Positions 6,908 through 29,559 of a stretch of DNA of 64,000 bases are shown piece by piece (position 1 is the stretch's first letter; the number at the start of each line of letters is the position of its first letter). Source of the DNA: Treponema sp. (GTDB lineage Bacteria; Spirochaetota; Spirochaetia; Treponematales; Treponemataceae); NCBI GenBank assembly GCA_017549025.1, contig JAFYWB010000068.1, positions 62,001 to 126,000 on the forward strand, in the 5' to 3' direction. A program made the position numbers and the translations under genes. The notes beneath the pieces are model-generated. The model saw only the letters and a program-made list of their open reading frames with translations. It did no database searches and was not told the DNA's origin.

Positions 6908-7336
6908 ATGGGTTCCTTTCGACTTATACGATTAGGTGAGCAGATTCGGGAAGAAATCTCCAAGATGATTCTTTCCAGTCAGATAAAGGATCCTCGTGTT
7001 TCCACCTTCCTTTCCATCAATAGAGTGGAGGTTTCTGGAGATCTTGGGTATGCCAAGGTCTACGTCTCAAGCTTTATGAGTGGAAAGGAAACGGAAAAGG
7101 GTGTGCGGGGCTTGCAGAGTGCCGCAGGCTTTATCCAGTCCACCATCGGAAGAAAATTAACTATCCGCCAGTTCCCAAAGCTTACCTTTGTTGCTGATTC
7201 CAGCATTAAGGAAGGCTTTGAGATGGTGCGAAAATTGAATCAGCTGGAAGCAGAGGAAGCCGCATTGGAGGCTTCCCGCAGTGAATCCCAAGCCCCAGAT
7301 GGGGACGAGGATTTCTCCGCAAGCGGGGAGAACTAA
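6908..7336 (+). CDS. rbfA: 30S ribosome-binding factor RbfA
   Basis: RbfA helps 30S maturation and cold adaptation. It is a 142-residue KH-like protein with the family pattern IREEISKMILSSQIKDPR near the N-terminus, then VEVSGDLGYAKVYVS, and RKLTIRQFPKLTFVADSSI. The ATG directly follows the infB stop codon, so translation is probably coupled. The last 56 bases overlap the likely truB start. Length and position in the infB operon match the family. Confidence 0.93.
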   Translation: MGSFRLIRLGEQIREEISKMILSSQIKDPRVSTFLSINRVEVSGDLGYAKVYVSSFMSGKETEKGVRGLQSAAGFIQSTIGRKLTIRQFPKLTFVADSSIKEGFEMVRKLNQLEAEEAALEASRSESQAPDGDEDFSASGEN

Positions 7337-8309: not shown

Positions 8310-8312
8310 TAT

Positions 8313-11698: not shown

Positions 11699-11718
11699 GC
11701 TGCACTGTATAACGCAGG

Positions 11719-11830
11719 GGCTGCCTAAGAAGTTGTGATGAGCATGTTTTATGATGAAGAATCCTTTGTTAAAAGAATTCTTCATCATGAAGTGTAAGTC
11801 ACGGAAACTTCTGTAGGCAGCCTTTTTTTT
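11719..11830 (+). terminator. Large branched terminator after pnp
   Basis: An outer arm (11719-11734) pairs with 11806-11822 and is followed by eight T. Inside it sits an independent hairpin whose 11-bp arms 11752-11762 and 11777-11787 are perfectly complementary. The whole makes a cruciform-like structure of about 105 nt. Confidence 0.75.
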
Positions 11831-11847
11831 CGGAAGTGAGGTTCACC

Positions 11848-13360: not shown

Positions 13361-13402
13361 TATGGGGGTGGGGGGATGAATCGTAGATTGAATTGATATA
13401 AA

Positions 13403-13419
13403 TAGATTGTCCAAATCTA
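13403..13419 (+). promoter_or_regulatory. Small inverted repeat before the first island gene
   Basis: TAGATT and AATCTA flank five bases, 16 bases before the ATG at 13436. A second TAGATTG copy lies at 13384. It could be an operator; the evidence is only the symmetry and position. Confidence 0.3.
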
Positions 13420-13435
13420 CTTTTGTGAGGAAATT

Positions 13436-15241
13436 ATGCAAGCATTAATGTTAGCAGCTGGAATGGGAAAAAGATTAGGAAAATATACAGAGAATGCAAC
13501 AAAGTGTATGGTTCCCGTTAATGGGAAAACTTTAATTGAGTATGCAATTGAATCTCTTATCGAAGCAAAAATAAAAAAACTTACATTGGTTGTTGGTTAT
13601 AAAAAAGAGGTACTAAAAGACTTTTTAAAAGATAGATATAACGAAATAGAAATTAATTACATAGATAATGATGTCTTTGATACAACGAACAATATTTTTT
13701 CACTATATATGGCACGAGATATATTAGCACAAGATGATACAATTCTTTTAGAAAGTGATTTGATTTTTGATAAAGATATTATTACGGAAATTATTGAGAA
13801 TAAAAATCCTAATCTAGCTGTTGTTTCTCCATTCGAAACTTGGATGGATGGAACTTGTGCCTTAATCGATGAACAAAATGTAATAAAGGGGATTTTGGGT
13901 AAAACTGAATTTAATTGGCATGAAACTCATCAATATTTTAAAACAGTCAATATATATAAGTTTTCAAAAGAATTTGCTACTACTGTATATATGCCATTTC
14001 TTGAAGCGTATCAAACTGCATATGGAAAGAATGAGTATTATGAAACAGTTTTAAAAGTTATTTCTTTTTTAGGAAATTCAACTTTTAAAGCTCATTCAGT
14101 AGATGGTTCTCGTTGGTATGAAATTGATGACCCTGCAGATTTAGCTATTGCAGAGACAAGATTTTCATTTGGTAAGAAGCATTTATATAATATGTCAAAA
14201 TCATTTGGTGGATATTGGCGTTTTCCTTCTATGCTAGATTATTGCTATTTGGTAAATCCATATTTCCCTCCAAAATCATTGGTTGAAGAATTAAAAGCTA
14301 ATTTTGAAGTGTTATTGGAAAGTTATCCAAGTGGTGATAGACAGCAAAGTTTACTTGCTGGTAAAATTTTTGGAATAAATCCAGATTATATTGCGGTTGG
14401 AAATGGAGCTGCTGAGTTAATTTCTGGGTATGCAGATTTTATAGAAGGAAAAGTGGTAGTTCCATATCCTACTTTTAATGAATATCCTGAACGATTGGGT
14501 AGCGACAGAACTATTTGGTTGAAAACAGATGAAAACTTTTCATATACTATTGATGATATATTGAATTGTATAAAAGAAACTAATGCAAAATCTGTATTGC
14601 TTATCAATCCTGAAAATCCAAGTGGTCATTTTTTTACCGAACGAGAAGTTTTAGGTCTTTTAGATGAATTAAAACAACAAAATATTAATCTAATTTTTGA
14701 TGAAAGTTTTATTGATTTTGCTGAAAAAAAAATAAGATATACTCTGATAAAAGATAAGATTTTGGAAAAATATCCAAATCTTATTGTTATAAAATCAATT
14801 AGTAAAAGTTATGGTGTTCCTGGTATTCGTTTAGGAATTTTAGCAAGTAGTAATAAGGATTTGGTATACAAAATTACAAGACGAACGTCCATATGGAATA
14901 TAAATAGTTATGCAGAAAATTTTTTGCAGATTTTCGATAAATATAAAAAATATTATTCTGAGGGATGCGATAAAATTGCTGATGAGAGAGCAAGATTTAT
15001 GGCATTGTTAAAAGATATTTCTTGGCTAGAAGTGTATCCAAGTCAGGCAAATTATGTTTTGTGCAAACTTAAAGATAAAATTACAAGTGAAAGTTTAGCA
15101 ATACTGTTACTAGATAAATACAATATTTTTATAAAGGATTTATCTTCAAAAAAGGGTTTTGAAGATGGACAATTTATTCGCTTGGCTGTAAGAAATACTG
15201 AAGACAATAACAAATTAATAGAAGCTCTGAGGAAAATGTAA
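13436..15241 (+). CDS. Fusion of a nucleotidyltransferase and a PLP-dependent aminotransferase (PntC-like)
   Basis: Residues 1 to about 245 are a LicC/PntC-type cytidylyltransferase with LAAGMGKRLG, the lysine segment MVPVNGKTLIEY and metal-binding LESDLIFD. Residues about 260-601 are a fold-type I aminotransferase of the HisC/CobD group: NPENPSGHFF, DESFIDF, and the PLP lysine K457 in SISKSYGVPG. The architecture matches PntC of Treponema denticola, which makes CMP-2-aminoethylphosphonate. No PEP mutase or phosphonopyruvate decarboxylase lies in this window, so the amine could instead be a phosphoamine such as phosphoethanolamine or serinol phosphate. It leads the operon with Wzx, an octopine-dehydrogenase-like enzyme and LicD. 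GAGG precedes the ATG. Confidence 0.85.
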   Translation: MQALMLAAGMGKRLGKYTENATKCMVPVNGKTLIEYAIESLIEAKIKKLTLVVGYKKEVLKDFLKDRYNEIEINYIDNDVFDTTNNIFSLYMARDILAQDDTILLESDLIFDKDIITEIIENKNPNLAVVSPFETWMDGTCALIDEQNVIKGILGKTEFNWHETHQYFKTVNIYKFSKEFATTVYMPFLEAYQTAYGKNEYYETVLKVISFLGNSTFKAHSVDGSRWYEIDDPADLAIAETRFSFGKKHLYNMSKSFGGYWRFPSMLDYCYLVNPYFPPKSLVEELKANFEVLLESYPSGDRQQSLLAGKIFGINPDYIAVGNGAAELISGYADFIEGKVVVPYPTFNEYPERLGSDRTIWLKTDENFSYTIDDILNCIKETNAKSVLLINPENPSGHFFTEREVLGLLDELKQQNINLIFDESFIDFAEKKIRYTLIKDKILEKYPNLIVIKSISKSYGVPGIRLGILASSNKDLVYKITRRTSIWNINSYAENFLQIFDKYKKYYSEGCDKIADERARFMALLKDISWLEVYPSQANYVLCKLKDKITSESLAILLLDKYNIFIKDLSSKKGFEDGQFIRLAVRNTEDNNKLIEALRKM

Positions 15242-15243
15242 AT

Positions 15244-16761
15244 TTGAAAAGTCAAATTAAGATAGGTGCAATATTAACTTTTGTTTCTCTTCTTATTGGA
15301 AATGCAATTTCTTTAGTTTATACGCCATTTATGCTCAAAACACTTGGGCAAGTTGAATATGGATTGTATGGATTAGCAAATTCAATTGTAGGCTATCTTA
15401 CAGTCCTAGATTTTGGCTTGGGAAATACCGCTATTAGATATACTGCAAAATATAAAGCGGAAAATAAAGAGGAAAAATTAAAGTATATGTATGGGATGTT
15501 TATCATTTTATATACTTTAATAGGAATAATAACTTTTACTATTGGCTATGTTTTTTCATTAAAGGCAAATATTTTCTTTAAAAATGGGTTATCTTTCGAA
15601 GAGGTAAAAACTGTAAAAACCTTATTAATTTTAGCTTCAATAAATTTAGCAGTATCATTTCCTTTTGGTGTTTTCACATCGGTTATAACAGCATATGAGA
15701 AATTTATTTTCTTGAAAGTTTCAACTATTGTTAGGTATTTATTAAATCCATTAGTATATATTCCTGTTTTGTTTTTTGGATATAAATCGATTGGTTTGAT
15801 AATAGCAACTACTGTATTAAATTTTATTTTTTTATTAATAAATTTATTATATTGTTTATTTAACTTAAAAATAAAAATTTCTTTTAAGAAGTTTGATTTT
15901 ACATTAATAAAAGAAATTTTTTCTTATTCAGTTTGGATTTTTGTCGGTAGTATTGTTAATCAGCTATGGTGGAACTCTGGACAATTTATGCTTGGTATTT
16001 ATTCGTCAGCAGTATCTATTGCAATTTTTAATTTGGCAATGCAGTTTAAAAGTTATTTTGAATCATTTGCAACATCAATTTCAGGTGTTTTTTTGCCAAG
16101 GTTAACAAGTATGGAGGCAAATAAAGCTTCTGATGGAGAATTTACAGATTTATTTATTAAAGTTGGACGATTGCAGTTTATATTAATATCTCTTATTTCA
16201 ACTGGTTTTATTTTATTCGGACGACAATTTATTTTTATCTGGGCTGGTGAAAATTACGATTTTTCGTATTATGTTACTTTAATTATTTTTATACCTCTTG
16301 CATTGGTTGACACTCAAACATTAGGAATTGCTATTTTACAAGCCAAAAATAAACATAAATTTAGATCTGTCGTGTATTTGTGTGTCGCAATTTTTTGTAT
16401 AGTAGTATGTATTCCATTTATCAAAAAATTTGATGTAATAGGATGTGCTTCAGCAACAGCTTTAGCTCTGACACTTGGTAATTTATTGATAATGAATTGG
16501 TATTATCATAAAAAAATTCATTTAGATGTTTATAAATTTTGGAGCGAACTATTAAAAATGTTACCAGGGGTTATTGTATCGACCATTATGATGTGGTTAG
16601 GAATAAAATATTTATTTCCGAATCTCAATTCATATAAAATATTGCTACCGTTTATATTGCTGTATGTTATGTTGTATTTTGTGGTAATGTATTTTACATC
16701 GTTTAATGCGTATGAAAGAAGTTTAATACATGGTATTACTAGAAAAATAAGGAGAATGTAA
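15244..16761 (+). CDS. Wzx-type polysaccharide flippase
   Basis: A 505-residue, strongly hydrophobic protein with about 12-14 predicted membrane segments, of the MATE/Wzx/MurJ superfamily. The N-terminal pattern LIGNAISLVYTPFMLKTLGQ, then EYGLYGLANSI and LDFGLGNTAIRY, is typical of O-antigen flippases. It should move lipid-linked repeat units across the inner membrane. The start is TTG 15244, two bases after the previous stop, with GAGG upstream. Its stop overlaps the next start by one base. AT-rich codon use matches the island. Confidence 0.88.
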   Translation: MKSQIKIGAILTFVSLLIGNAISLVYTPFMLKTLGQVEYGLYGLANSIVGYLTVLDFGLGNTAIRYTAKYKAENKEEKLKYMYGMFIILYTLIGIITFTIGYVFSLKANIFFKNGLSFEEVKTVKTLLILASINLAVSFPFGVFTSVITAYEKFIFLKVSTIVRYLLNPLVYIPVLFFGYKSIGLIIATTVLNFIFLLINLLYCLFNLKIKISFKKFDFTLIKEIFSYSVWIFVGSIVNQLWWNSGQFMLGIYSSAVSIAIFNLAMQFKSYFESFATSISGVFLPRLTSMEANKASDGEFTDLFIKVGRLQFILISLISTGFILFGRQFIFIWAGENYDFSYYVTLIIFIPLALVDTQTLGIAILQAKNKHKFRSVVYLCVAIFCIVVCIPFIKKFDVIGCASATALALTLGNLLIMNWYYHKKIHLDVYKFWSELLKMLPGVIVSTIMMWLGIKYLFPNLNSYKILLPFILLYVMLYFVVMYFTSFNAYERSLIHGITRKIRRM

Positions 16762-17879
16762 TGCCTAAAATTACTATTGTTGGTGCTGGAAATATAGGGA
16801 TAGCTTGTGCAGTAGATTTAGCTCAAGATAAAGAAAATCATGTAACAGTATTTACTCATAAAGCAAGGAATTTGAACAAAATATTTTCAAAAGTAGATAT
16901 AGATACAGACGAAGTTATTTGTACAGAGTCAATTTATATAACCAATGATAAAGAATCTGCATTTAAAGAATGTGAAATAGTTATAGTAACATTACCTTCT
17001 TTTTTAATTGATAATTTTGTAAATGAAATATCATGTTATACTCCAAAAATAATTTACTATGTTCCTGGTTATGGGGGAAAGGAACTTTATAGTAAGACTT
17101 TATCAGAAAATGGAATTGTTATTGCTGGTTTGGAAAGAGTTCCTTATATAGCAAGGTTACAAACTCTTAATAAAGTTTCTGCATCAAAGAAAACATCCAT
17201 AGCTTGTGCAGCATTAAAGTCAAAAGATACAGAATATGCTTGTGCATTGATAGAAAAGTTATTTAATATTCCATGTGTTAGAATAAATAGTTATTTAACT
17301 GTTTCCTTTACACCATCAAATCCAATTCTTCATACATCTAGATTATTTAGTATGTTTGAGAAGTTTACTTTTGATACAATTTTATCTAGGCAGATAAAGT
17401 TTTATGCTGAATGGAATGCCCTCTCATCAGAAAACTTAATTTGTATGGATAAGGAACTTGATGCAATTGTTTCAAAGGTTCAGGGTGTGGATGTTTCCCA
17501 ATATAAATCGATATGTAAACATTATGAATCTTTTACTGTAGAAGCAATGACTGATAAAATAACTTCAATAAAAGCTTTTAAGGATATCTTGTCACCTTTA
17601 ATTAAGACTGCGGACGGAATGTACAAAATCGATTCAAAGTCACGATATTTTGAAGAAGATTTTTTATTTGGATTATTAATATTAAAATCCTTTGCAGAGA
17701 TATTAAAAGTTGATACACCATATATGAATAAAGTCTTAAATTGGTATGGGAAATTAACAACATTGCAAATATTAGATTGTGATAATAGGTTAAAACTTGA
17801 TAACTTGCAAAAGTTTCCAATCTTGCATAATTTTGGAATAAAAGATATTGAAAGTATCCAGAAATACTACAAAGATTAA
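16761..17879 (+). CDS. Octopine/nopaline dehydrogenase family protein
   Basis: The N-terminal Rossmann fold begins ITIVGAGNIGIACAVDL and the C-terminal helical domain carries SNPILHTSRLF, matching the NPxxH catalytic region of opine dehydrogenases. These enzymes join an amino group and a 2-oxo acid by NAD(P)H-dependent reductive condensation. Its place between a CDP-amine-making fusion enzyme, a flippase and LicD suggests it modifies the amine or an amino sugar of the surface glycan; that is inference. The start overlaps the flippase stop (TAATG) and AGGAG lies upstream. The exact substrates cannot be read from sequence. Confidence 0.75.
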   Translation: MPKITIVGAGNIGIACAVDLAQDKENHVTVFTHKARNLNKIFSKVDIDTDEVICTESIYITNDKESAFKECEIVIVTLPSFLIDNFVNEISCYTPKIIYYVPGYGGKELYSKTLSENGIVIAGLERVPYIARLQTLNKVSASKKTSIACAALKSKDTEYACALIEKLFNIPCVRINSYLTVSFTPSNPILHTSRLFSMFEKFTFDTILSRQIKFYAEWNALSSENLICMDKELDAIVSKVQGVDVSQYKSICKHYESFTVEAMTDKITSIKAFKDILSPLIKTADGMYKIDSKSRYFEEDFLFGLLILKSFAEILKVDTPYMNKVLNWYGKLTTLQILDCDNRLKLDNLQKFPILHNFGIKDIESIQKYYKD

Positions 17880-17897
17880 ATATAAGAGGAATATTTT

Positions 17898-18761
17898 ATG
17901 CAACTAACACAAGAAGAATTACGTAAAGCTCAGTTACTAATGTTAAAGATTTTAAAAGAAGTACACAGAGTTTGTGAAGAAAATAATATAAAATATTTCC
18001 TTTCTGATGGAACCCTAATAGGTGCGATAAGACATAATGGTTTTATTCCTTGGGATGATGACTTAGATATTGGAATGCTTAGAGAGGAATATGAAAAATT
18101 CTGCAAAATTGCCCCTGAAAAATTAGGAGATGAATTTGTATTGCAAACAACTGAAACAGATCCTGGATATGCATGGCAATTTGGTAAGGTTATGTTAAAA
18201 AATACTGTATGGTTGGAGAGCGCTGCTAAAAATACAAATCGTAATAACTTTGGTATATATATTGATATTTTTCCATATGACAAAATACCTAAAAATAAAA
18301 TTTTGCAATGGGTCATTCTCTATAGATATAGATTTGTTGATGGGCTGATTAGAATAAAATTAAATTATAATTCTTTTAAAAAGACAAGAGGTTTTGTTCG
18401 AAAGTTATTTTATCTTTATAAGTTATTTTTTATAAAGATATATTCATTAAAGAATTTGATTCGAATTCGAGAAAAAATTTGTAAACAATATTTAAGGTCA
18501 GAAAAAAGAATTATAGTTACAAAATATGGAGGTAGTTTTAAAAAAAATCAAAATACATTGGAATCATATTCTATATCTGAATTACGAGTTTTTGAAGATA
18601 TGAAATTTTATATACCTAAAGCATACGACAGTATATTAAAAAACTTATACGGTGATTATATGGTTTTGCCTCCTGAAGAAAAACGAACAAACCATGGTAT
18701 TTATGAATATGATTTTGGAATATATGAAAAAGATTTCATATTAAAAGAAGGGAGTCAATGA
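17898..18761 (+). CDS. LicD family phosphotransferase
   Basis: LicD-type enzymes transfer a phospho-amine, classically phosphocholine, from a CDP carrier to a glycan. The N-terminal half has KYFLSDGTLIGAIRHNG followed by the metal-binding WDDDLDIGM and, later, the GIYIDIFPYD motif. The 287-residue length fits the family. It completes a four-gene set with the PntC-like fusion, which would make the CDP donor. No choline kinase or choline transporter is nearby, which fits a donor other than CDP-choline. It is probably cytoplasmic or membrane-associated. Confidence 0.88.
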   Translation: MQLTQEELRKAQLLMLKILKEVHRVCEENNIKYFLSDGTLIGAIRHNGFIPWDDDLDIGMLREEYEKFCKIAPEKLGDEFVLQTTETDPGYAWQFGKVMLKNTVWLESAAKNTNRNNFGIYIDIFPYDKIPKNKILQWVILYRYRFVDGLIRIKLNYNSFKKTRGFVRKLFYLYKLFFIKIYSLKNLIRIREKICKQYLRSEKRIIVTKYGGSFKKNQNTLESYSISELRVFEDMKFYIPKAYDSILKNLYGDYMVLPPEEKRTNHGIYEYDFGIYEKDFILKEGSQ

Positions 18762-18977
18762 AAAAACTTCTTTGTGTTTAGGACGTTAAATTAAGGGAAA
18801 ACTAGGGTAATTATAGAGTTTTATAAAATCCTTGATTATAACTTTCAGGAAAAAAAATATTTATACACTGAGTTGTAATCAAAAGTTGAGGATTAGCTAA
18901 TACAGATTAAATAGAAAAAATGCTTGAATCGGTTAACTTTTTTAAATATATATATATTCTATTTTTTAGGTAGATTT

Positions 18978-20111
18978 ATGATTTATATTAATATTTTATT
19001 AATACTGATTTTTTTTTCATTTATACATGAAAAAAAAAATAAATATCATTTTGTATTCTTAGTTGTATTGTATTTTTTTTTCCTAGCTTTGCGTTATGGA
19101 CAGGGAACTGATTATTTTAACTATAAAACTCTATATCTGTTAAATCCAAAAGAATATAAGTTTTTTTTTCAAAATAGTTATTTAAATAATACAGAACCAT
19201 TTTTTTTCTTAATAAATATTTTTGCCAAAAATTCAGGTCTGACATTTCAATTTGTTATAATTGTATGTGCTTTGATTACAGTTTTTGTTAGTGCAACCTT
19301 TATATTGAAATATTCAAGATATAAGTTATTTTCACTTTTTATTTTATTTTCGAATTATTTTTTCTATTTTCAGAGTGCATTACGACAGTCTATTGCAATG
19401 GTAATTATTGCGTATGCAATTTATGAATACATTCAGAAAAGAAAGATAAAAACTTATATTTTTTCAGTTGTATTAGCTATGATGTTTCATACAACTTCGA
19501 TAGTTGGCTTTATAGTTCCTGTTGTATTAGGAATAAAATTAAAGAAGATTTATAATTATTCTTATTTTCTTTTATTTAGTGTTTTTTTACTACTTTGTTC
19601 ACACCTAATATCTCGATTGATAATTTTTTTTGTATCTTTTATTCCTCGGTATAGTACATATAAAAATTATGTTTCAATAAATGTTGGTGCTGTTGTTGTA
19701 CGACTTATTTTATCTTTTTTGGTTTTATATATTTTGCGCAAAAATAATGTTAGTGATTTTTCTAGAAAGATTTCAAAATTATATTTGGTAGGAAATTTAA
19801 TGTTTTTTGCATTATCATCAATATCTATATTGTCAAGGTTAACGGATTATTTTGCTTTTTTAGAAGTGATTTTATTCCCAAATATTGTTACAAAGCCAAA
19901 TAAAAAAAATATAAAACTCTCCTTTTGTTTATTAATATCATTATTTTCAGCTTTATTTATTAAAGATATAGGAGCCGCATTAAAACAAGATCATTATTAT
20001 AATAAAAATATATTTAGTTATCCTTATATAACTATTTTTAACAAAGAACGTGTTTTATCTGAAAAGAAAATAACACAAGTATTATATGAGCGACTTATTA
20101 CAGAGGACTAG
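18978..20111 (+). CDS. EpsG/Wzy-like polysaccharide polymerase
   Basis: A 377-residue membrane protein with about ten hydrophobic segments. The early motif RYGQGTDYFNY followed by a loop and the segment SALRQSIAMVIIAYAIYEY are typical of EpsG-family polymerases; FHTTSIVGF is also characteristic. It would link flipped repeat units in the periplasm. ATG 18978 has AGGTAG upstream and leads directly into a membrane helix; the longer frame from TTG 18924 is less likely. A gene-free 216-base AT-rich spacer precedes it. Confidence 0.78.
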   Translation: MIYINILLILIFFSFIHEKKNKYHFVFLVVLYFFFLALRYGQGTDYFNYKTLYLLNPKEYKFFFQNSYLNNTEPFFFLINIFAKNSGLTFQFVIIVCALITVFVSATFILKYSRYKLFSLFILFSNYFFYFQSALRQSIAMVIIAYAIYEYIQKRKIKTYIFSVVLAMMFHTTSIVGFIVPVVLGIKLKKIYNYSYFLLFSVFLLLCSHLISRLIIFFVSFIPRYSTYKNYVSINVGAVVVRLILSFLVLYILRKNNVSDFSRKISKLYLVGNLMFFALSSISILSRLTDYFAFLEVILFPNIVTKPNKKNIKLSFCLLISLFSALFIKDIGAALKQDHYYNKNIFSYPYITIFNKERVLSEKKITQVLYERLITED

Positions 20112-20132
20112 TTATGAAAAAAAGGTGTTTTT

Positions 20133-21143
20133 ATGAAATATGACAGTATCTTTATAACTAATCTTGCTTCTTTTTACAAAATTAACCTTTTTAATAGGAT
20201 TAATGAAAAAAAAAGAATTATGGTAATTTTTACCATGGAAAGTGAAAAAACTCGTAATGAAGATTTTTACTCTGATAACTTCCAGTTTGATTTTCTGTTT
20301 TTAAAAGGATGTTTATTTAAAAGAATCAAAATTTTATGGAAAATAAAAAAAAATAATACCAAATGTGAAGTGATATTAAGTGGATGGGATAGTATAGAAT
20401 CGTGGTTCACTTTATTTATTAGTCCTAAAACAAATAATTCTTGCATTGTGGAATCAAGTAACTATGAATCAAGAGTATCTGGATATAAAGGAATTTTAAT
20501 AAAATTATTCTTAAACAGAATTAATACAGTTTATGTACCAGGTAAATCAACAGAAGCTTTATTACGTAGTTTAAATTTTAAGGGTACAATAATACATACT
20601 GGTGGTGTCGGAATTATGAATTTCCAAGTTCAACCTCCATATTACAAAAAGGAAATAGTAAAAAAATTTCTCTATGTAGGAAGATTTGTTGAAGTAAAGA
20701 ATCTAAAATTCTTGATTGAATGTTTTAACAGTTTACCTCATCTAGATTTGAATATTATTGGATTTGGAGAACAAGAAAGCGAATTAAAAGCTCTTGCAAA
20801 GGAAAATATTCATTTTTTAGGGCCAGTCGATAATGTGAAGTTACCCTATTATTATAAAAATAATGATGTCTTTATATTACCTAGTAAAAGCGAACCGTGG
20901 GGATTGGTTATTGAAGAAGCTTTGATTCATGGACTTCCTGTGATTGTTAGTGACAAGGTCGGTTGTAAGGATGATTTAGTAACAGAGGAAACAGGTTTAG
21001 TCTTTGATATTAATGATATAAATAATTTACGCGAAAAAATCAAAGAAATGACTGATGTTGAATTTTATAATCAACTCAGAAAAAATATCGCTTCTTTGAA
21101 TTTTGAGGAAAGAAACAATTTTCAAGTATCTGCTTACTTATAA
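20133..21143 (+). CDS. GT4 family glycosyltransferase
   Basis: A 336-residue GT-B protein. The C-terminal donor domain shows FLYVGRFVEVKNLKFLIE, then LNIIGFGEQESELK and the acidic motif PSKSEPWGLVIEEALIHGLPVIVSD (EX7E), which binds the sugar nucleotide. The N-terminal acceptor domain is short. It adds one sugar to the lipid-linked repeat unit; which sugar cannot be told. It follows the polymerase gene at a 21-base gap with AGGTG before its ATG. Confidence 0.85.
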   Translation: MKYDSIFITNLASFYKINLFNRINEKKRIMVIFTMESEKTRNEDFYSDNFQFDFLFLKGCLFKRIKILWKIKKNNTKCEVILSGWDSIESWFTLFISPKTNNSCIVESSNYESRVSGYKGILIKLFLNRINTVYVPGKSTEALLRSLNFKGTIIHTGGVGIMNFQVQPPYYKKEIVKKFLYVGRFVEVKNLKFLIECFNSLPHLDLNIIGFGEQESELKALAKENIHFLGPVDNVKLPYYYKNNDVFILPSKSEPWGLVIEEALIHGLPVIVSDKVGCKDDLVTEETGLVFDINDINNLREKIKEMTDVEFYNQLRKNIASLNFEERNNFQVSAYL

Positions 21144-21198
21144 CAATTTATAGAATCAAGATTCATTAATTGAATATTTTTATTGACACATAACTCTT

Positions 21199-22428
21199 AT
21201 GCCAAGACTTTTACAGATTAACTCAGTAGTAAACTCAGGAAGCACAGGCCACATAGCAGAGAATATTGGTAAATATATCTTAGCTAATGGTTGGGAAAGT
21301 TATATTGCCTATGGACGTAACCCACGGCCTTCTGCATCAAAACTCATTCGTATTGGAACTAAATTTGATGTTTTGTTTCATGTTTTAGTTACTCGTCTAT
21401 TTGATTTACATGGGCTTGCTTCTAGGAGAGCTACAAAAAAGCTTGTAGATGATATTAAGAGAATAAAACCAGATATTATTCATCTTCATAATATTCATGG
21501 ATATTATTTGAATTATAAGATTTTATTCTCGTATCTTGCTGAAAGTAAGGTACCGGTAGTATGGACAATGCACGATTGTTGGGCAGCAACTGGGCATTGT
21601 CCATACTATACATTTGTACAATGTATAGTGTGGACAACCAAAGATGGATGCAGAAAGTGTCCACAAAAAAAATCCTATCCAAAGTCAATGTTGTTTTCAG
21701 CAGCTGCATATAACTTCAAGTGCAAAAAAAAATATTTTAACTTGCTTGATAAAAACCAGTTGACTATCGTTTGTCCATCTAAATGGCTTGCAGATGAGTT
21801 AGGAAAGTCATATTTAGCACAGTATCGTCGTTTTGTGATTCATAATGGAATTGATTTTAATGTGTTTCAACCAATGAATAACCTAATAGATTCTACAGCA
21901 AAAGTATTTAACAAAAAAATTATCCTTGGTGTAGCAAGTGTCTGGGATCATAGGAAAGGTTTGGAAGACTTTGTAAAATTAGCTGATATCCTTGATGATG
22001 ATATGGAAATTGTTCTTGTAGGGGTAAGCTCAAAACAGCAACAAGATCTTCCACGCAAGATTGTGGGCATACAGAGAACAGAAAATCAACAAGAACTTGC
22101 CCGATTATATTCTCAAGCGTTAGTATTTGTGAATCCCACGTATGAAGATACATTTCCAACAACAAATCTGGAATCACTTGCATGTGGAACTCCTGTTATT
22201 ACTTATAGAACAGGTGGAAGTCCAGAAGCAATTGATGAAAATACAGGATACATTGTGGAAGTTGGAAATGTATATGGAATTAAAGATGCTATAAAAAAAA
22301 TTGATTCATTAGGGAAAAAGTATTTTGCAGAACATTGTATTAAACGTGCAAAAAAATTATTTCAGAAAGAAATTTTTACTGAGAAGTATCTAAAATTATA
22401 TCAAAGTACATCTGATAATAACGGTTAA
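21199..22428 (+). CDS. GT4 family glycosyltransferase
   Basis: A 409-residue GT-B enzyme beginning LQINSVVNSGSTGHIAENIG, with PDIIHLHNIHGYYLN in the acceptor domain and DTFPTTNLESLACGTPVITY (EX7E-type) in the donor domain. A Cys-rich insert around residues 125-155 (CWAATGHCPYY, then CRKCPQKKS) is common in one WcaC-like branch of this family and may bind a metal. The ATG has no clear ribosome site. Predicted role: sugar transfer in repeat-unit assembly. Specificity is unknown. Confidence 0.85.
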   Translation: MPRLLQINSVVNSGSTGHIAENIGKYILANGWESYIAYGRNPRPSASKLIRIGTKFDVLFHVLVTRLFDLHGLASRRATKKLVDDIKRIKPDIIHLHNIHGYYLNYKILFSYLAESKVPVVWTMHDCWAATGHCPYYTFVQCIVWTTKDGCRKCPQKKSYPKSMLFSAAAYNFKCKKKYFNLLDKNQLTIVCPSKWLADELGKSYLAQYRRFVIHNGIDFNVFQPMNNLIDSTAKVFNKKIILGVASVWDHRKGLEDFVKLADILDDDMEIVLVGVSSKQQQDLPRKIVGIQRTENQQELARLYSQALVFVNPTYEDTFPTTNLESLACGTPVITYRTGGSPEAIDENTGYIVEVGNVYGIKDAIKKIDSLGKKYFAEHCIKRAKKLFQKEIFTEKYLKLYQSTSDNNG

Positions 22429-22463
22429 ATTTTTTATAGAAATTTCATTTTTTTGGAGAAAAT

Positions 22464-23513
22464 ATGTCAACATTCTCAAACAAAACCCTCCTGATAACTG
22501 GAGGAACAGGTTCATTTGGTAATACTGTTTTGAAGCATTTCCTCAATTCTGATATTGCAGAAATACGTATATTTAGCCGTGACGAGAAGAAACAGGATGA
22601 TATACGGCATGATTTACAAGCAAAGCATCCTGAACTTGCAAAAAAAGTAAAATTCTATATTGGAGATGTTAGAAATCTGCAATCAATAAAAGATGCTATG
22701 CCTGGTGTGGATTATATCTTTCATGCTGCAGCATTAAAACAAGTTCCTTCCTGTGAATTCTTTCCTATGGAAGCTGTAAGAACAAATATTGTAGGTACAG
22801 ATAATTTGCTTCATGCTGCAATTGATGCAGGGGTAAAACGTGTTGTTTGTCTGTCCACAGACAAAGCCGCTTATCCAATTAATGCTATGGGAATCTCCAA
22901 AGCTATGATGGAACATGTTATTTATGCAAACGCTCGTGTTGCTGCAGAACGCGGAGATACAGTAATTTGTTGTACTCGATACGGTAATGTAATGTGTAGT
23001 CGTGGGTCTGTTATTCCTTTGTTTATAGACCAGATTAAAGCAGGAAATCCTATTACTGTTACTGATCCTAACATGACAAGATTTTTGATGAATCTGGATG
23101 AAGCTGTTGACTTGGTAAAATTTGCTTTTGAAAATGCAAATCCAGGAGATTTGTTTATTCAAAAATCTGATGCTTCTACAATTGGGGATTTAGCAAAAGC
23201 TGTTCAAAAATTGTTTGGGGAAACAGGTATTAATGTTATTGGTACTCGCCACGGTGAAAAACTATATGAAACATTGATGACTTGTGAAGAAAGACTTCGA
23301 AGTGAGGACATGGGCAATTATTACAGAGTTGCTGCAGATAGCCGTGACTTAAACTATGATAAATTTGTTGTAAAAGGTGATGTTCAGACTATGGCAAATG
23401 AATCATATACAAGTCATAATACAACACGTCTTGATGTTGACGGTACCGTAAATAAAATTTTAACAACTGATTATGTAAAAGATGCTTTGGAAGCATGGAA
23501 ACAAGGAAAATAG
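22464..23513 (+). CDS. UDP-N-acetylglucosamine 4,6-dehydratase/5-epimerase (CapE/FnlA)
   Basis: First enzyme of UDP-N-acetyl-L-fucosamine synthesis. This extended short-chain dehydrogenase has the NAD site ITGGTGSFGNTVL and the family signature DYIFHAAALKQVPSCEFFP. The catalytic region is CLSTDKAAYPINAMGISKAMME; here the usual Tyr-x3-Lys of SDRs is replaced by M-x3-K, as in the CapE/FlaA1 branch. The length of 349 fits CapE. It starts a run with capF, an acetyltransferase gene, capG and a WbuB-like transferase. GGAG precedes the ATG. Confidence 0.93.
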   Translation: MSTFSNKTLLITGGTGSFGNTVLKHFLNSDIAEIRIFSRDEKKQDDIRHDLQAKHPELAKKVKFYIGDVRNLQSIKDAMPGVDYIFHAAALKQVPSCEFFPMEAVRTNIVGTDNLLHAAIDAGVKRVVCLSTDKAAYPINAMGISKAMMEHVIYANARVAAERGDTVICCTRYGNVMCSRGSVIPLFIDQIKAGNPITVTDPNMTRFLMNLDEAVDLVKFAFENANPGDLFIQKSDASTIGDLAKAVQKLFGETGINVIGTRHGEKLYETLMTCEERLRSEDMGNYYRVAADSRDLNYDKFVVKGDVQTMANESYTSHNTTRLDVDGTVNKILTTDYVKDALEAWKQGK

Positions 23514-24713
23514 ATGAATATTTTAGTTACAGGTGCAAAAGGTTTTGTTGGTAGAAATCTTGTTGAAAGTTTAAAAAATATTCGAGATGGAAAAGATAAA
23601 ACAAGAAATTTTTCTGTTGAAGATATTTATGAATACGATATTGATTCTAAATTGGATGAATTAGATGAATATTGTTCTAAGGCCGATTTTGTTTTCAATT
23701 TGGCAGGAGTTAATAGACCAAAAGAAAATTCAGAATTTATGTCTGGAAATTTTGGATTTGCATCTGATTTATTAAATATGTTAAAAAATAACAATAACCC
23801 ATGTCCTGTAATGCTTTCGAGTTCAATTCAAGCAACCTTGATAGGTCGTTATGGTGAGTCTGATTATGGTAAATCAAAACTTGCTGGAGAAGAGTTATTT
23901 TTTTCATATGGTAAAGCAAATGATGTAAAGGTTCTAGTTTATAGATTTCCTAATCTCTTTGGGAAATGGTGTAGACCTAATTATAATAGTGCTGTTGCAA
24001 CTTTTTGTAATAACATCGCAAATGATTTACCAATTCAAGTAAATGATACTTCTGTTGAATTAGAATTACTCTATATTGATGATCTTGTGGAAGAAATGTT
24101 ATTAGCTCTAGAAGGTAAAGAGCACCATTGTGACTATGATGGATTGCAACCTATAGAACAAAAGGATGGAAAATATAGTTTCGTTCCTGTTACTCATAAA
24201 GTTACATTAGGACAAATTGTCGATTTATTGAATACATTTAAATCACAATCTTCTACATTATTGATGCCTGAAATTCCAAATAACTCTTTTGCTAAAAAGC
24301 TTTATTCAACATATTTATCATATTTACCAAAAGAGAAAGTTGCTTTTCCTTTAAAAATGAATTGTGACGAAAGAGGAAGTTTTACTGAGCTATTGAAAAC
24401 AGAAAACTGTGGACAATTTTCTGTAAATATTTCAAAACCAGGAATTACAAAAGGTCAGCATTGGCATAATACAAAATGGGAGTTTTTTATTGTTGTTAGT
24501 GGACATGGTCTTATACAAGAAAGAAAAATTGGAACAGATGAGATAATTGAATTTGAGGTAACAGGTGAAAACATTCAAGCAATTCATATGTTGCCTGGAT
24601 ATACTCATAATATCATTAATCTTTCTGATACAGAAAATCTTGTTACTGTAATGTGGGCAAATGAACAGTTTGATTCAAATAAACCAGATACTTTTTTTGA
24701 AAAGGTAAAATAA
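23514..24713 (+). CDS. CapF/FnlB-type reductase with cupin domain
   Basis: Second step toward UDP-L-FucNAc: reduction of the 4-keto intermediate and, through the cupin domain, C3 epimerisation. Residues 1 to about 245 form a short-chain dehydrogenase (ILVTGAKGFVGRNLVE; catalytic-site region YGKSKLAGEE). Residues about 285-399 form a zinc-cupin with GITKGQHWHNTKWEFF and PGYTHNIINLS. This two-domain order and the 399-residue length are diagnostic of CapF. The ATG directly follows the capE stop. Confidence 0.93.
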   Translation: MNILVTGAKGFVGRNLVESLKNIRDGKDKTRNFSVEDIYEYDIDSKLDELDEYCSKADFVFNLAGVNRPKENSEFMSGNFGFASDLLNMLKNNNNPCPVMLSSSIQATLIGRYGESDYGKSKLAGEELFFSYGKANDVKVLVYRFPNLFGKWCRPNYNSAVATFCNNIANDLPIQVNDTSVELELLYIDDLVEEMLLALEGKEHHCDYDGLQPIEQKDGKYSFVPVTHKVTLGQIVDLLNTFKSQSSTLLMPEIPNNSFAKKLYSTYLSYLPKEKVAFPLKMNCDERGSFTELLKTENCGQFSVNISKPGITKGQHWHNTKWEFFIVVSGHGLIQERKIGTDEIIEFEVTGENIQAIHMLPGYTHNIINLSDTENLVTVMWANEQFDSNKPDTFFEKVK

Positions 24714-25226
24714 GTGAGATTAATTATTTTAGGGGCTGGTGGTTTTGGTAGAACTGTATATGATTTAGCAAAACAGGCTAATAAATATTCTGAGATTTGT
24801 TTTTTGGATGACGCAAGTGTAGATTCTTGTGTCATAGGCAAATGTTCTGAATATCAACAATTCGTTGCAGAAAATACGGAATTTTATCCTGCAATTGGTA
24901 ATAATAAAGTTCGCCAAGAATGGATTAGTACGTTGAATAGTAATGGAATACAATTGGCATCAATTATTCATAAATCATCTTATGTTAGTCCGACAGCAAA
25001 AATTGGAAAAGGTTGTGTTGTTTTACCGAATTCAGTTATAAATACAAATGTAGTGATTAATGATGGTTGTATAATAAATTGTGGAGCGATTATAGATCAC
25101 GATTGTATTATAGAATCATCTGTGCATGTATGTTTAGGTGCCATAATTAAAGCTGAAAATCGGATAAAACAATGTTCAAAAATTGAAGCTGGTGAAATAA
25201 TTCAGTTAGGAACTTATAAATTATAG
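24714..25226 (+). CDS. NeuD/PglD-like acyltransferase, short at the C-terminus
   Basis: The N-terminal part is the small Rossmann-like domain of NeuD/PglD (LIILGAGGFGRTVYDLA) and the C-terminal part a left-handed beta-helix built from hexapeptides such as PTAKIGKGCVVLPNSV. The family transfers acetyl from acetyl-CoA to sugars or amino sugars. At 170 residues it is about 40 shorter than usual and its last coils read unusually (RIKQCSKIEAGEIIQLGTYKL), so activity is uncertain. It starts at GTG directly after capF and separates capF from capG, which are neighbours in enterobacterial clusters. Confidence 0.7.
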   Translation: MRLIILGAGGFGRTVYDLAKQANKYSEICFLDDASVDSCVIGKCSEYQQFVAENTEFYPAIGNNKVRQEWISTLNSNGIQLASIIHKSSYVSPTAKIGKGCVVLPNSVINTNVVINDGCIINCGAIIDHDCIIESSVHVCLGAIIKAENRIKQCSKIEAGEIIQLGTYKL

Positions 25227-25237
25227 AGGAAGAAAGA

Positions 25238-26401
25238 ATGAGTGTAACCTTTGCAAATAATGGAAAATTAAAGCTACTTATTATTGTTGGAACACGACCT
25301 GAAATAATTAGATTAGCAGAAGTAATTAAAGCGTGTAGAAAATATTTTGATACATTGTTGGCTCATACAGGGCAAAATTACGATTATAATCTAAATGGTA
25401 TCTTCTTTAAAGATTTAGAATTAGAAGATGCTGAAATTTATATGGATGCTGTTGGTAAAGATTTGGGAGAAACAATGGGAAATATCATTGCAAAATCTTT
25501 TCAATTAATGGCTGAAATAAAACCTGATGCTGTTCTTGTTTTGGGTGACACTAATTCATGTTTATCTGTAATTGGTGCAAAAAGATTACATATTCCTATT
25601 TTTCATATGGAAGCAGGAAATAGATGTAAAGATGAATGTTTACCAGAAGAGACAAATAGAAGAATTGTAGATATTATTAGCGATGTCAACTTAGCTTATT
25701 CTGAACATGCTCGACGTTATCTTGCCGACTGTGGTCTTCCAAAGGAAAGAACTTATGTAACAGGTTCTCCTATGGCAGAAGTATTGCATCGTAATTTAGA
25801 AAAAATTGAAAAGAGTGATATTCACAATCGATTGGGATTAGAAAAAGGAAAATATATTTTACTTTCTGCTCATAGAGAGGAAAATATAGATACAGAGAAA
25901 AATTTTGTTTCATTATTTACAGCTATAAATAAAATGGCTGAAAAATATGATATGCCAATTTTATACTCTTGTCATCCAAGAAGTCGTAAAAGATTAGAAG
26001 CATCTGGATTTGTTCTCGATAAACGTGTTATTCAGCATGAACCCCTTGGTTTTCACGATTATAATTGTTTACAAATGAATGCATTTGCTGTTGTATCTGA
26101 CTCTGGTACCTTACCAGAAGAAAGTAGCTTTTTTACTTCTGTAGGACAGCCTTTCCCTGCAGTTTGTATTAGAACAAGTACTGAACGACCAGAATCTTTA
26201 GATAAAGCAGGGTTTGTTCTTGCTGGTATAGATGAAATGTCTTTGCTTCAAGCGGTTGATACAGCTGTTGAATTGGTAAAAAACGGAGAGTATGGAATTC
26301 CTGTTCCAGATTATACGGACGAAAATGTTAGCACAAAAGTTGTAAAAATAATCCAAAGTTACGTTGGTGTTGTAAATAAAATGGTTTGGAGAAAGTTTTA
26401 A
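25238..26401 (+). CDS. CapG/FnlC-type UDP-sugar 2-epimerase
   Basis: WecB-family non-hydrolysing 2-epimerase for the last step to UDP-L-FucNAc. Motifs: VGTRPEIIRLAEVIK, HTGQNYDYNLNGIFF, VLVLGDTNSC, HMEAGNRCKDECLPEETNRR, SAHREENID and the SDSGTLPEES region. The phrase NYDYNLNGIFF and the length of 387 fit CapG/FnlC more than WecB, as does the adjacency to capE and capF. GAGGAAG precedes the ATG. Confidence 0.92.
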   Translation: MSVTFANNGKLKLLIIVGTRPEIIRLAEVIKACRKYFDTLLAHTGQNYDYNLNGIFFKDLELEDAEIYMDAVGKDLGETMGNIIAKSFQLMAEIKPDAVLVLGDTNSCLSVIGAKRLHIPIFHMEAGNRCKDECLPEETNRRIVDIISDVNLAYSEHARRYLADCGLPKERTYVTGSPMAEVLHRNLEKIEKSDIHNRLGLEKGKYILLSAHREENIDTEKNFVSLFTAINKMAEKYDMPILYSCHPRSRKRLEASGFVLDKRVIQHEPLGFHDYNCLQMNAFAVVSDSGTLPEESSFFTSVGQPFPAVCIRTSTERPESLDKAGFVLAGIDEMSLLQAVDTAVELVKNGEYGIPVPDYTDENVSTKVVKIIQSYVGVVNKMVWRKF

Positions 26402-26404
26402 TAA

Positions 26405-27625
26405 ATGAAATTATGTATTTTTACTAATCACTTCTTTCCAGAAGACTTTAAGGTTAATGATATAGCTTTTGATTTACAAAAAAAAGATTTTGATATCACT
26501 GTAATAACTGCTATCCCTGATTATCCCAAAGGTAAATTTTATGATGGATATTCGCTTTTTAAAAAGCGAAAAGAAGTTGTAAATGGAGTGAATGTTATCC
26601 GATTGCCTATTATTCCAAGAGGGAAAGGTGGGGCAATTAGATTAGCGTTGAATTATATTTCATATTTTGTTTGTGCAACAATTTTTACGTTTTTTCATTC
26701 TTTTAAAAATCAGTATGATGCTGTATTTGTTCATTTAACATCACCATTTTTTATAGGTATACCTGCTGTTCATTTGAAAAAAAGACAAAAAATTCCTCTC
26801 TATTTTTGGACTTTAGATTTATGGCCAGAATCTTTGATTTCTGCAGCAGGTATTAAACATCCCCTTATAATTGAGCCTCAAAATAAGATGGTTGCTATGG
26901 TATATAGTAATTGTGATAAAATTCTTATAAGCTCAAAAGGATTTGCAAAATCAATTTGTGAAAAAGGTAATTTTGAAGATAAATTAGTATATTTCCCGAA
27001 TTGGGCAGAAAGCGTTGTTTCACCTTCTGATTTTGATATCAGTAAAATTTCTCCATTTGATGATAAATCAAATTTCATTCTTTTATTTGCTGGAAATTTA
27101 GGGGAAGCTCAAAATCTTGATACAATTATTGAATCTGCAGATAGATTAAAAGATAATGAAAAGATAAAATTTGTTTTTGTAGGTGATGGCCGAAGAAAAA
27201 TTCATCTGGAAAATCTTGTGGCAGAAAAAAAACTGAATAATACAGTATATTTTCTTGGGCGATATCCAATTGATACAATGCCTGTTTTTATGGGCAATGC
27301 ATCTGTTTTGTTATTTTCGTTAAAAGATGAATTGTGTTTTAATCTAACAGTTCCTGCAAAAGTACAGTTTTATATGTCTCAAGGTAAACCAATTTTGGCT
27401 ATGATAAATGGTGATGGTGCAGATTTGGTTAATGAATCCAAATGTGGAATTGCTGTTCCTGCAAATGATGTAAATAGTTTCGTTGAAGCAGTAAAAAAGT
27501 TAGCTTCATTATCAGAGGAAAATATTGATCAATTTGGTATAAATGGAAAAACATATTATGAAATGAATTTTACTAAAGAACAACGAATGGATCAATTAAT
27601 AAGAATTTTATTGGGTGAAGAGTAA
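26405..27625 (+). CDS. WbuB-like GT4 glycosyltransferase (probable L-FucNAc transferase)
   Basis: A 406-residue GT-B enzyme that begins LCIFTNHFFPEDFKVNDIAFDL and contains IPDYPKGKFYDGY and FWTLDLWPESL, features of the WbuB/FnlD branch found after fnlABC in O26-type clusters. The donor domain has FLFAGNLGEAQ-like residues (LLFAGNLGEAQNLDT). Context strongly suggests it transfers L-FucNAc made by the three enzymes upstream. Three bases separate it from the epimerase. It ends the contiguous part of the island. Confidence 0.85.
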   Translation: MKLCIFTNHFFPEDFKVNDIAFDLQKKDFDITVITAIPDYPKGKFYDGYSLFKKRKEVVNGVNVIRLPIIPRGKGGAIRLALNYISYFVCATIFTFFHSFKNQYDAVFVHLTSPFFIGIPAVHLKKRQKIPLYFWTLDLWPESLISAAGIKHPLIIEPQNKMVAMVYSNCDKILISSKGFAKSICEKGNFEDKLVYFPNWAESVVSPSDFDISKISPFDDKSNFILLFAGNLGEAQNLDTIIESADRLKDNEKIKFVFVGDGRRKIHLENLVAEKKLNNTVYFLGRYPIDTMPVFMGNASVLLFSLKDELCFNLTVPAKVQFYMSQGKPILAMINGDGADLVNESKCGIAVPANDVNSFVEAVKKLASLSEENIDQFGINGKTYYEMNFTKEQRMDQLIRILLGEE

Positions 27626-28012
27626 AATACGCTATTTAGTCAATACAGACTTCCACAAGTTTCAGGTGTAAACCAATATAGCTTGTTTATATTCCAGTTA
27701 ATTGTATTAGTATGTGTCATATATTTTATCTAGTTTTCTGTAGACCTGTGGCATTTGTTATGCCGTAGCAATGTATATAGAAGTGTTTCAAAGTTCAATA
27801 TTTTTGCTAGTTTCTTTTATTTGTGTACTTAGCCCTTAAATGGAGGCAAGAAATATAAAAAATATACCATGCTCTATCTAGTCAAGTTCTCTGAATGCAT
27901 TCCTCGCACCATCCACTACGAGTTCGTGACAAAACCCAAGATGTAGCCTTCCAGGCAGAGTGATAGATTATCGTCCAAATTAATTATTTTCTCTTTTACA
28001 AGGAACTCCACA
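27626..28012. other. Gene-free AT-rich spacer
   Basis: I see no open frame with a ribosome site, RNA fold or clear terminator in these 387 bases. The last third (27,870-27,960) is less AT-rich than the rest and may be a remnant of foreign sequence, but I could not identify it. Confidence 0.4.
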
Positions 28013-29544
28013 ATGAAAAAAATGCTGAGTTTTTTATTTTATTTAATTATTTTTACATTATTTATTAGTTCTCTTTTAATTATCAATCTCGGTGATTGGT
28101 TTTCACAGAGATTTGGAATAAAATTTGAAGAGATAATTTATACATTAATAATGCCAATGAAAGGTGCTGATACTGATTTCTTTCAATCGGCTGTTTCCTA
28201 TGTTTTTCCTATTTGTTTTAAAGCAATAGTTATTTTTATTTGTATTATTCTATTCGATTTCATTTTTCTAAACAAAGTTGAATTAATTTTATATTTTACA
28301 ATAGGAAAGAAACTCAAAGCAAACCTTAATTTTGTAAGTTTTTATCGTTCAGTCACTTTCCTTGCAGTAATCTCTTTATTTACATATTCTATAGTATATG
28401 CGGATAAACTTCTTGCTCTAAAAGAGTATCTACAGTTGCGGATGTCATCATCCAATGTAATTGAAGATTACTATATTCCTCCAGAAATAGTAACTCTTAC
28501 GGTCGAAGGTAAGAAAAAAATTTAATCTTCATTATCATGGAAAGTATGGAAGTTTCGTATGCTTCAGAACTAGATGGTGGTTTTCAAGTGAAAGTGAATT
28601 ATATTCCAAATTTAACAAGCCTTGCAAATGAGCATCTTACATTTAAAGGTGGTATGAAAGAAAATTCCTTAAGCGGCTTATATTCAACTTCTGGAACCGG
28701 ATGGACAATGGCTGCCTTGTTCTCCTTGACTTCAGGACTACCTTTTAAATTTCCAATAGAAGGAAATAGCATGGACAAAGTGCAGTCTTTTGCTTCCAGT
28801 CTTACTACTATGGGAGATTTATTGGAAGCTGCTGGATATGTAAATGAATTTATTTGTGGTTCAGATGCGAGTTTCGGTGGAAGAAAAAATTACTTTGAAC
28901 AGCATGGAAATTATCAAATTTTTGATTTGCATACAGCTCGGGAACAGAATTATATAGCTCCAGATTACTCTGTGTTTTGGGGATTTGAAGATGAGATTTT
29001 ATATAGAATAGCAAAAGATGAGGTCACACGCCTTGCCGACAATGTTCAGCCATTTAATCTTACTTTACTAACTGTCGATACACATCATGTTGGAGGATAT
29101 GTTTGTGGGATATGTGAATCTCAACATTCTGAACCTTTGGGAAATGTTATACAATGTGCAGATAAACAGGTAGTAGAATTTATTGATTGGTGTAAAACTC
29201 AAGAATGGTATGAGGATACAGTAATTGTCATTGTGGGTGATCATCCAAGAATGGATAAAATTCTTTTAGAAGAAGCGACATCCTATGATAGAGCCTTGTA
29301 TAACTGTTTTATTAATGTAGATATGAATGAAAATGTACAAACAGAAAATCGAGTCTTAAATCCCATGGATATTTTTCCCTCGGTAATGTGGGCTCTTGGA
29401 TTTCGTTTTGAAGGAAATCGTTTAGGGTTAGGAACAAATATTTTTTCTGGTGGACAAACATTGGCGGAAGAGCTTGGATTTGAGAATTATAATGAATCAA
29501 TTGGGCAATATTCACAGTATTTTATTGATGAAATAGTAAAGTAG
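28013..29544 (+). pseudogene. LtaS/MdoB-like sulfatase-fold phosphoglycerol transferase, frameshifted at a poly-A tract
   Basis: Two frames read as one protein. The first (28013-28525) has an N-terminal membrane region and ends TVEGKKKI-stop. The second (28537-29544) starts in the middle of the catalytic domain with MESMEVSY and carries the nucleophile Thr in TGWTMAALFS and the metal site VIVGDHPRMDK. Adding one A to the run of seven A at 28514-28520 gives KKNLIFIIMESMEVSY, the expected family sequence. So this is either a pseudogene, a phase-variable gene or a gene read by slippage. The intact protein would transfer a phosphoglycerol-type group to surface glycans. AAGGA precedes the first ATG. 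Confidence 0.85.
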
Positions 29545-29559
29545 ATAAGGAGCTTGATA

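Follow-up and report, generated by a model that had tools for sequence, protein, structure and literature searches.

A Treponema sp. gene cassette that may decorate a surface glycan with N-carboxyalkylated ethanolamine phosphate

In the lic pathway (LicA-LicB-LicC-LicD) an amine is activated with cytidine triphosphate (CTP) and is then transferred by LicD onto a surface glycan. A stretch of 64,000 nucleotides from Treponema sp. (GCA_017549025.1, contig JAFYWB010000068.1, positions 62,001 to 126,000 of the forward strand; hereafter the window) contains a four-gene cassette that appears to follow the same logic with other parts: a cytidylyltransferase fused to a pyridoxal phosphate (PLP) enzyme (the fusion), a Wzx-type flippase, an opine-dehydrogenase-family enzyme (the opine enzyme) and a LicD-family phosphotransferase (Table 1). 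Unlike the lic pathway, it is without genes for choline uptake and choline kinase; the cell would produce the amine itself, and an imine-reducing enzyme would modify it. Judging from sequence comparison, we favour on balance the reading that the cassette makes an N-carboxyalkylated ethanolamine phosphate and attaches it to a surface glycan. The four open reading frames (ORFs) are co-directional on the plus strand with intergenic gaps of exactly 2, -1 and 18 bases, and the operon, domains, gene order and gaps described in an earlier note on this DNA all agree with the ORF check and the Pfam search.

N-[(R)-1-carboxyethyl]ethanolamine phosphate, which is exactly the proposed product, occurs in Proteus mirabilis serotype O14, and a rumen-protozoan lipid carries the same head group. 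We are aware of no gene assignment for it, and none turned up in the literature that was searched. Under the name 'R-Cet-EtnP' it is described as a substituent of P. mirabilis O-polysaccharides (PMC9630907), a known chemical structure. The predicted architecture of the fusion matches that of FrbH from FR-900098 biosynthesis, in which an N-terminal cytidylyltransferase and a C-terminal decarboxylase form one protein (PMC8976061); the essential lysine of FrbH, K38 (PMC6697681), corresponds to K23 of the fusion. The substrate of FrbH is a phosphonate, and its pathway leads to an antibiotic, whereas the fusion occurs here without phosphoenolpyruvate (PEP) mutase and has LicD, Wzx and the opine enzyme as partners. 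PntC of Treponema denticola, a 2-aminoethylphosphonate (AEP) cytidylyltransferase-AEP transaminase, also joins a LicC-type cytidylyltransferase to a PLP enzyme, but the latter is of class V (the PDB entry is titled 'Nucleotidyl transferase/aminotransferase, class V'), whereas that of the fusion is of class I, CobD type, in a genome that has no PEP mutase.

Pfam matches over the cut-offs were NTP_transferase and Aminotran_1_2 for the fusion and Polysacc_synt for the flippase. When the fusion was searched against PDB sequences, residues 1-245 matched LicC (1jyk, 64 bits) and PntC (6pd1, 44 bits), and the best match of the PLP half was 6oux ('Threonine phosphate decarboxylase-like enzyme', 163 bits), followed by 3ftb, CobD (1lc5, 107 bits) and then HisC. 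Among the NCBIfam profiles, CobD likewise scored above HisC (177 against 147 bits). A tree that combined 24 fusions with stand-alone aminotransferase/decarboxylase relatives found at the loci, and with the aligned parts of four solved structures, placed the window fusion with 6oux (support 0.97), inside a clade of CobD and the fusions (1.0), with HisC and its relatives outside. We take 6oux to be SMUL_1544, an L-serine-phosphate decarboxylase. SMUL_1544, Cj1436 of Campylobacter jejuni and CobD are stand-alone proteins, whereas the PLP domain is fused here, but the CobD-type phenylalanine is kept: F425 (in the motif DESF) is present in 50 of the 52 distinct fusions and likewise in 1lc5, 3ftb and 6oux, the residue being tyrosine in HisC and in the HisC-like proteins of two other loci (L006 and L011). 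The Schiff-base lysine, K457, is also found in 50 of the 52, and residues G11, R13, K23, E106, D108, E229 and D231 of the cytidylyltransferase are at least 97% conserved across the set. PntC was considered as the identity of the fusion and rejected, the PLP half being class I/II and CobD-like with the class V domain absent; the earlier note, which had called the protein PntC-like, has to be amended in this respect, its second domain being decarboxylase-like and not a class V AEP transaminase. If the reading proposed below is true, annotation pipelines that would name such fusions PntC or histidinol-phosphate aminotransferase could be corrected. An AlphaFold model of the fusion, built on a three-sequence alignment, was poor (mean predicted local distance difference test [pLDDT] 60, predicted template modelling [pTM] score 0.44) and was left unused.

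Two fusion homologues, at 5544-7391 of L093 and in L091, have lost motifs of the PLP domain (in L093 the Schiff-base lysine itself) and have an intact cytidylyltransferase half. Their PLP domain is probably dead and either retained as a scaffold or decaying.

The identity of the amine is suggested by both halves. E106 of the fusion aligns with E104 of PntC, at a position where LicC has an aspartate (D105). In PntC, E104 contacts the primary amine of AEP, and LicC with its smaller aspartate takes the larger phosphocholine (PMC6697681); that the fusion has the PntC-type glutamate and not the LicC aspartate points to a small primary amine as substrate, for example phosphoethanolamine. For the PLP half, C. 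jejuni provides a precedent in Cj1436, a capsule enzyme which converts serine phosphate to ethanolamine phosphate (PMC11800397, PMC12409886). SerC is encoded in the genome to which the window belongs (over the cut-off), so L-phosphoserine should be available. The conversion of L-phosphoserine to phosphoethanolamine and on to CDP-ethanolamine (CDP, cytidine diphosphate) within one protein is the simplest reading and the one which fits best; the fusion would probably make its phosphoamine from the amino acid phosphate itself, and a separate source of amine would be unneeded. The earlier note saw no PEP mutase in the window, which holds for the whole genome (99.99% complete; genome-wide search), and none was found in 29 of the 32 fusion-bearing genomes searched. 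A phosphonate is therefore unlikely to be the amine, contrary to the suggestion in that note of a phosphonate made elsewhere, and the fusion does not appear to be dedicated to phosphonates in this group.

The opine gene matches the Pfam family Octopine_DH (PF02317) with 83 bits against a cut-off of 30, and it is the only PF02317 gene of its genome. The top Foldseek matches of its AlphaFold model (pLDDT 86) were octopine dehydrogenase (3c7a, 3c7d and 3iqd) and N-(1-D-carboxyethyl)-L-norvaline dehydrogenase (CENDH, 1bg6), at a template modelling (TM) score of 0.78-0.82 but with 18-19% identity; staphylopine, yersinopine and pseudopaline dehydrogenases were among the lower matches. H191, R295 and D300 occur without exception in the seven homologues compared and align with positions 212, 324 and 329 of octopine dehydrogenase, the second of which is presumably the arginine that binds the oxo acid. 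A His-Asp dyad is general to opine dehydrogenases (PMC10787698). Profile, modelled fold and predicted catalytic residues together place the protein in the opine-dehydrogenase family. Octopine dehydrogenase, CENDH and staphylopine dehydrogenase act on a free amino acid, whereas here the expected amine is the phosphate of an amino alcohol, or the corresponding CDP ester.

Octopine-dehydrogenase genes are rare in this part of the tree: they were found in 3 of 195 genomes of the host's family (including its own and one with a decayed copy) and in 2 of 393 sampled from the phylum. A scan of the genome collection with an octopine-dehydrogenase alignment gave at least five loci, and counts from that collection are minimum counts. 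Seven intact close homologues were assembled, including that of the window, to which the other six are 32-46% identical; they come from Clostridia and Gastranaerophilales metagenome-assembled genomes in addition to the host's own group. All seven lie in CDP-amino-alcohol settings, and at four of these loci the fusion is present, the genomes being divergent and the gene orders different. In the window the order is fusion-wzx-opine-licD, with the opine gene one gene away from the fusion. The fusion overlaps the opine gene (stop/start) in L009 and L012, and in L010 the opine gene precedes the fusion by 18 bases; in these three divergent genomes the opine gene abuts the fusion, with only 32-36% identity in the octopine-dehydrogenase protein. 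At the remaining loci the gene is flanked by a CDP-OH_P transferase and a HisC-like gene (L006), by a HisC-like gene and two LicD genes on one side and CTP_transf_like on the other (L011), or by Glyphos_transf and ornithine-cyclodeaminase (OCD) family genes before it and a YidC-like gene after it (L007). By our estimate, an opine gene would lie within two genes of the fusion in about 0.2% of genomes by chance (about 4 positions among about 2,300 genes), and the association is beyond chance. The earlier note had staked its reading on such co-occurrence in other genomes, and the opine gene was accompanied by the fusion or an equivalent CDP-amino-alcohol set at seven of seven intact loci. A class-wide search returned mostly distant octopine-dehydrogenase relatives, and the three inspected (in G564, G600 and G532) were in unrelated contexts.

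In L011 the CTP_transf_like domain (11129-12472) is fused to a GFO_IDH_MocA oxidoreductase and adjoins the octopine-dehydrogenase homologue and two LicD genes, a different solution to CDP activation.

Other genes take the place beside the fusion elsewhere. In L085 and L089 an imine reductase of the OCD/mu-crystallin family, unrelated to the opine enzyme, abuts the fusion with LicD nearby, and in Gloeothece (L101) a methyltransferase gene before LicD occupies the slot. In Fusobacterium vincentii (L015, 11225-14866) a formyltransferase-like gene overlaps the start of the fusion and a DUF1015 gene its end, with LicD 2 kb upstream; this is possibly an N-formyl-ethanolamine variant. The slot beside the fusion would then be a single position for N-modification, filled by an opine dehydrogenase, an OCD-family enzyme, a methyltransferase or a formyltransferase.

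The last gene of the cassette matches LicD (PF04991) over its full length (profile positions 1-227 of 227) with 163 bits against a cut-off of 22.6, and is the sole member of the family in its genome. We propose that it transfers the modified phosphoethanolamine. The activation with CDP and transfer by LicD put forward in the earlier note are supported. LicD occurred in each of the eight other genomes that were checked for it, among them the genomes of L009, L010 and L012; it was also found in 2 of 14 control genomes. Fusion homologues occur more widely, in 51 of the 195 family genomes and 37 of the 393 from the phylum sample (some of the matches covering the first domain only). A transferase of a family that uses CDP-alcohols lies within 6 kb of the fusion at 29 of 45 distinct loci (46 rows, two of which were the same place; tallies are corrected for the duplicate), namely Glyphos_transf at 22, LicD at 4 and CDP-OH_P_transf at 4, one locus having two.

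A recurrent trio was seen in the host's family (L064, L065, L066, L068, L069, L073, L082, L096 and others), consisting of a protein of about 900 amino acids with an N-terminal YidC/60KD_IMP domain, a Glyphos_transf protein of about 415 amino acids beginning '...LYIDPGTGSM', and the fusion. No further Pfam domain was found in the one copy of the long YidC-fused membrane protein that was scanned, and we know of no role for it.

From these data we propose the following pathway, in which every substrate, the choice of 2-oxo acid, the sequence of reactions and the nature of the acceptor are inferred. The PLP half of the fusion would decarboxylate L-phosphoserine to phosphoethanolamine, which the cytidylyltransferase half would convert with CTP to CDP-ethanolamine. 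The opine enzyme would then condense the amine with a 2-oxo acid, most likely pyruvate, and reduce the imine with NAD(P)H, which would yield an N-(1-carboxyethyl)ethanolamine group. This step is most economically placed on CDP-ethanolamine, after cytidylylation, and the residues of the fusion pocket, which are the same with or without an opine gene, favour that order too; less probably, the opine enzyme could act ahead of cytidylylation or on the glycan itself. LicD would move the modified phosphoethanolamine onto a lipid-linked repeat unit, and the Wzx flippase would export the decorated unit. The opine-type N-modification of the earlier note stands as to enzyme family, fold, the His/Arg/Asp residues and gene association, and the substrates and sequence of steps are our proposal.

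Several observations weigh against this pathway. The 177 bits of the fusion are below the TIGR01140 CobD equivalog cut-off of 290.55, and K567, present in 50 of the 52 fusions, occupies the position of an arginine in CobD and 6oux, so that the substrate may differ from phosphoserine. Most fusion-bearing genomes are without an octopine-dehydrogenase gene, from which it follows that N-carboxyalkylation is optional. In L009, L010 and L012 LicD is not adjacent to the fusion and opine gene but lies elsewhere in the genome, and the product there could serve another use. K567 would also agree with another amino alcohol: the PLP half might use L-threonine phosphate or some other phospho-amino acid (giving CDP-1-amino-2-propanol) or transaminate a triose phosphate (giving CDP-serinol), with the opine enzyme still carrying out the N-carboxyalkylation. 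L006 and L011 pair the octopine-dehydrogenase homologue with a HisC-type aminotransferase and a CDP-OH_P transferase or LicD, and C. jejuni has an aminotransferase, Cj1437, that forms serinol phosphate (PMC11800397). This alternative is nevertheless doubtful, for the window domain groups with 6oux and not with HisC, the decarboxylase-type phenylalanine is kept, and the PntC-like pocket residue of the cytidylyltransferase points to an ethanolamine-sized substrate. The amine could instead be a phosphonate (AEP or a homologue), imported or made elsewhere: PntC and FrbH, the nearest known enzymes for activated amines, have phosphonate substrates (PMC6697681, PMC8976061), the fusion of one genome (G189) adjoins a PEP mutase gene, and some rhizobial plasmids carry CobD-like, cytidylyltransferase and CDP-alcohol transferase genes beside PEP mutase, that of Rhizobium sp. 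007 with an octopine-dehydrogenase gene as well. Given how rarely PEP mutase accompanies the fusion, we consider this highly improbable.

The remaining alternatives concern the opine enzyme. It might act on a free amino acid, giving a secreted opine, or on a sugar, its neighbours being a coincidence of a variable island. The island is indeed horizontally acquired and shuffled, and octopine-dehydrogenase genes are met in unrelated settings too, for instance next to cysteine synthase or transport genes; but coincidence sits badly with repeated adjacency to the fusion in divergent genomes and differing orders, in L010 and L012 outside glycan islands, and with an unrelated imine reductase taking the same slot, and we hold it to be quite unlikely. 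That the cassette does no more than add phosphoethanolamine or phosphocholine by way of the fusion and LicD, with an octopine dehydrogenase that is inactive or recently acquired, would accord with its absence from most fusion loci and with a relative, G133, in which a decayed copy with several stops directly precedes an intact LicD gene closely related to that of the window (L008, about 6500-8834; no fusion was found in that relative). Such decay suggests that the modification is dispensable. In the window, however, the ORF is intact with all catalytic residues kept and shares one base with the adjoining gene, the genes all running in the same direction, and the cassette has no choline-type genes; we see hardly any likelihood in plain decoration. 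The synthesis and attachment of N-carboxyalkylated ethanolamine phosphate is therefore the reading that we retain.

The decoration of glycans with CDP-activated amines (Lic/Pnt) is already known, and the opine version is a new twist on it. We suggest, more tentatively than for the cassette itself, a modular and undescribed pathway in which a bifunctional enzyme takes phosphoserine to CDP-ethanolamine, an interchangeable partner modifies the nitrogen, and LicD, Glyphos_transf or CDP-alcohol transferases use the product, the opine version accounting genetically for glycans that carry N-(1-carboxyethyl)ethanolamine phosphate. If true, this supplies genes for a known glycan substituent for which we know of none, allows its occurrence in further genomes to be predicted, and extends the opine-dehydrogenase reaction to an activated amino alcohol; it also reveals a widespread way of making CDP-ethanolamine in a single protein that depends neither on phospholipid turnover nor on PEP mutase. 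With the N-carboxyalkyl group the zwitterionic phosphoethanolamine would gain a further negative charge, which would affect the charge of the surface and its recognition by the immune system.

The cassette opens a low-GC island (about 23-35% GC at 13.4-29.5 kb; the flanks have 48-49% on the left and 40-44% on the right). The rest of it encodes an EpsG-like polymerase, glycosyltransferases, FnlA/WbjC/WecB-like N-acetyl-L-fucosamine (L-FucNAc) genes, a PglD-like acyltransferase and a phosphoglycerol-transferase-like gene. On this gene content and low GC, the predicted setting is a horizontally acquired surface-glycan locus. An Rfam search of the island gave no match.

Table 1. Coordinates of the cassette, the domains of the fusion and the surrounding island in the window
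Feature	Position	Strand	Size and basis
Fusion (LicC/PntC-type cytidylyltransferase + CobD/L-Ser-P-decarboxylase-type PLP domain)	13436..15241	+	601 aa; Pfam, NCBIfam, PDB sequence search, 52 homologues, tree
Cytidylyltransferase domain of fusion	13436..14170	+	residues 1-245
PLP domain of fusion	14186..15238	+	residues 251-601
Wzx-type flippase, inside operon	15244..16761	+	505 aa, TTG start; Pfam Polysacc_synt
Opine-dehydrogenase-family enzyme	16761..17879	+	372 aa; Pfam Octopine_DH, fold, residues
LicD-family phosphotransferase	17898..18761	+	287 aa; Pfam LicD
Low-GC surface-glycan island	13400..29550	+	GC profile and Pfam/NCBIfam

Three plasmid clusters met in the comparison deserve mention. 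In the Rhizobium sp. 007 plasmid (L104, 1462-12815), genes for PEP mutase, aminotransferases, two cytidylyltransferases, a CDP-alcohol transferase, a CobD-like protein, an octopine dehydrogenase and a methyltransferase form one run, a possible pathway to an N-carboxyalkylated AEP lipid. Its octopine dehydrogenase is closer to that of a P. mirabilis gene beside a cysteine-synthase-like gene than to that of the window, and we treat the set as a parallel and not as the same octopine-dehydrogenase family. The tumour-inducing plasmid pTi_CFBP1905 (L018, 4793-10001) carries a phosphonate-lipid-like operon of PEP mutase, an aminotransferase, a phosphocholine-type cytidylyltransferase, an NAD(P)-dependent oxidoreductase and a CDP-alcohol transferase. 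Plasmid pBM700 of Priestia megaterium (L016, 5534-13638) has a fusion homologue with two ATP-grasp proteins, an AAC(3)-type N-acetyltransferase, a CDP-alcohol transferase and a plasmid-borne dxr. Since the product of dxr, 1-deoxy-D-xylulose 5-phosphate (DXP) reductoisomerase, is the target of fosmidomycin-type phosphonates, this is possibly an unrecognised FR-900098/fosmidomycin-like cluster with self-resistance.

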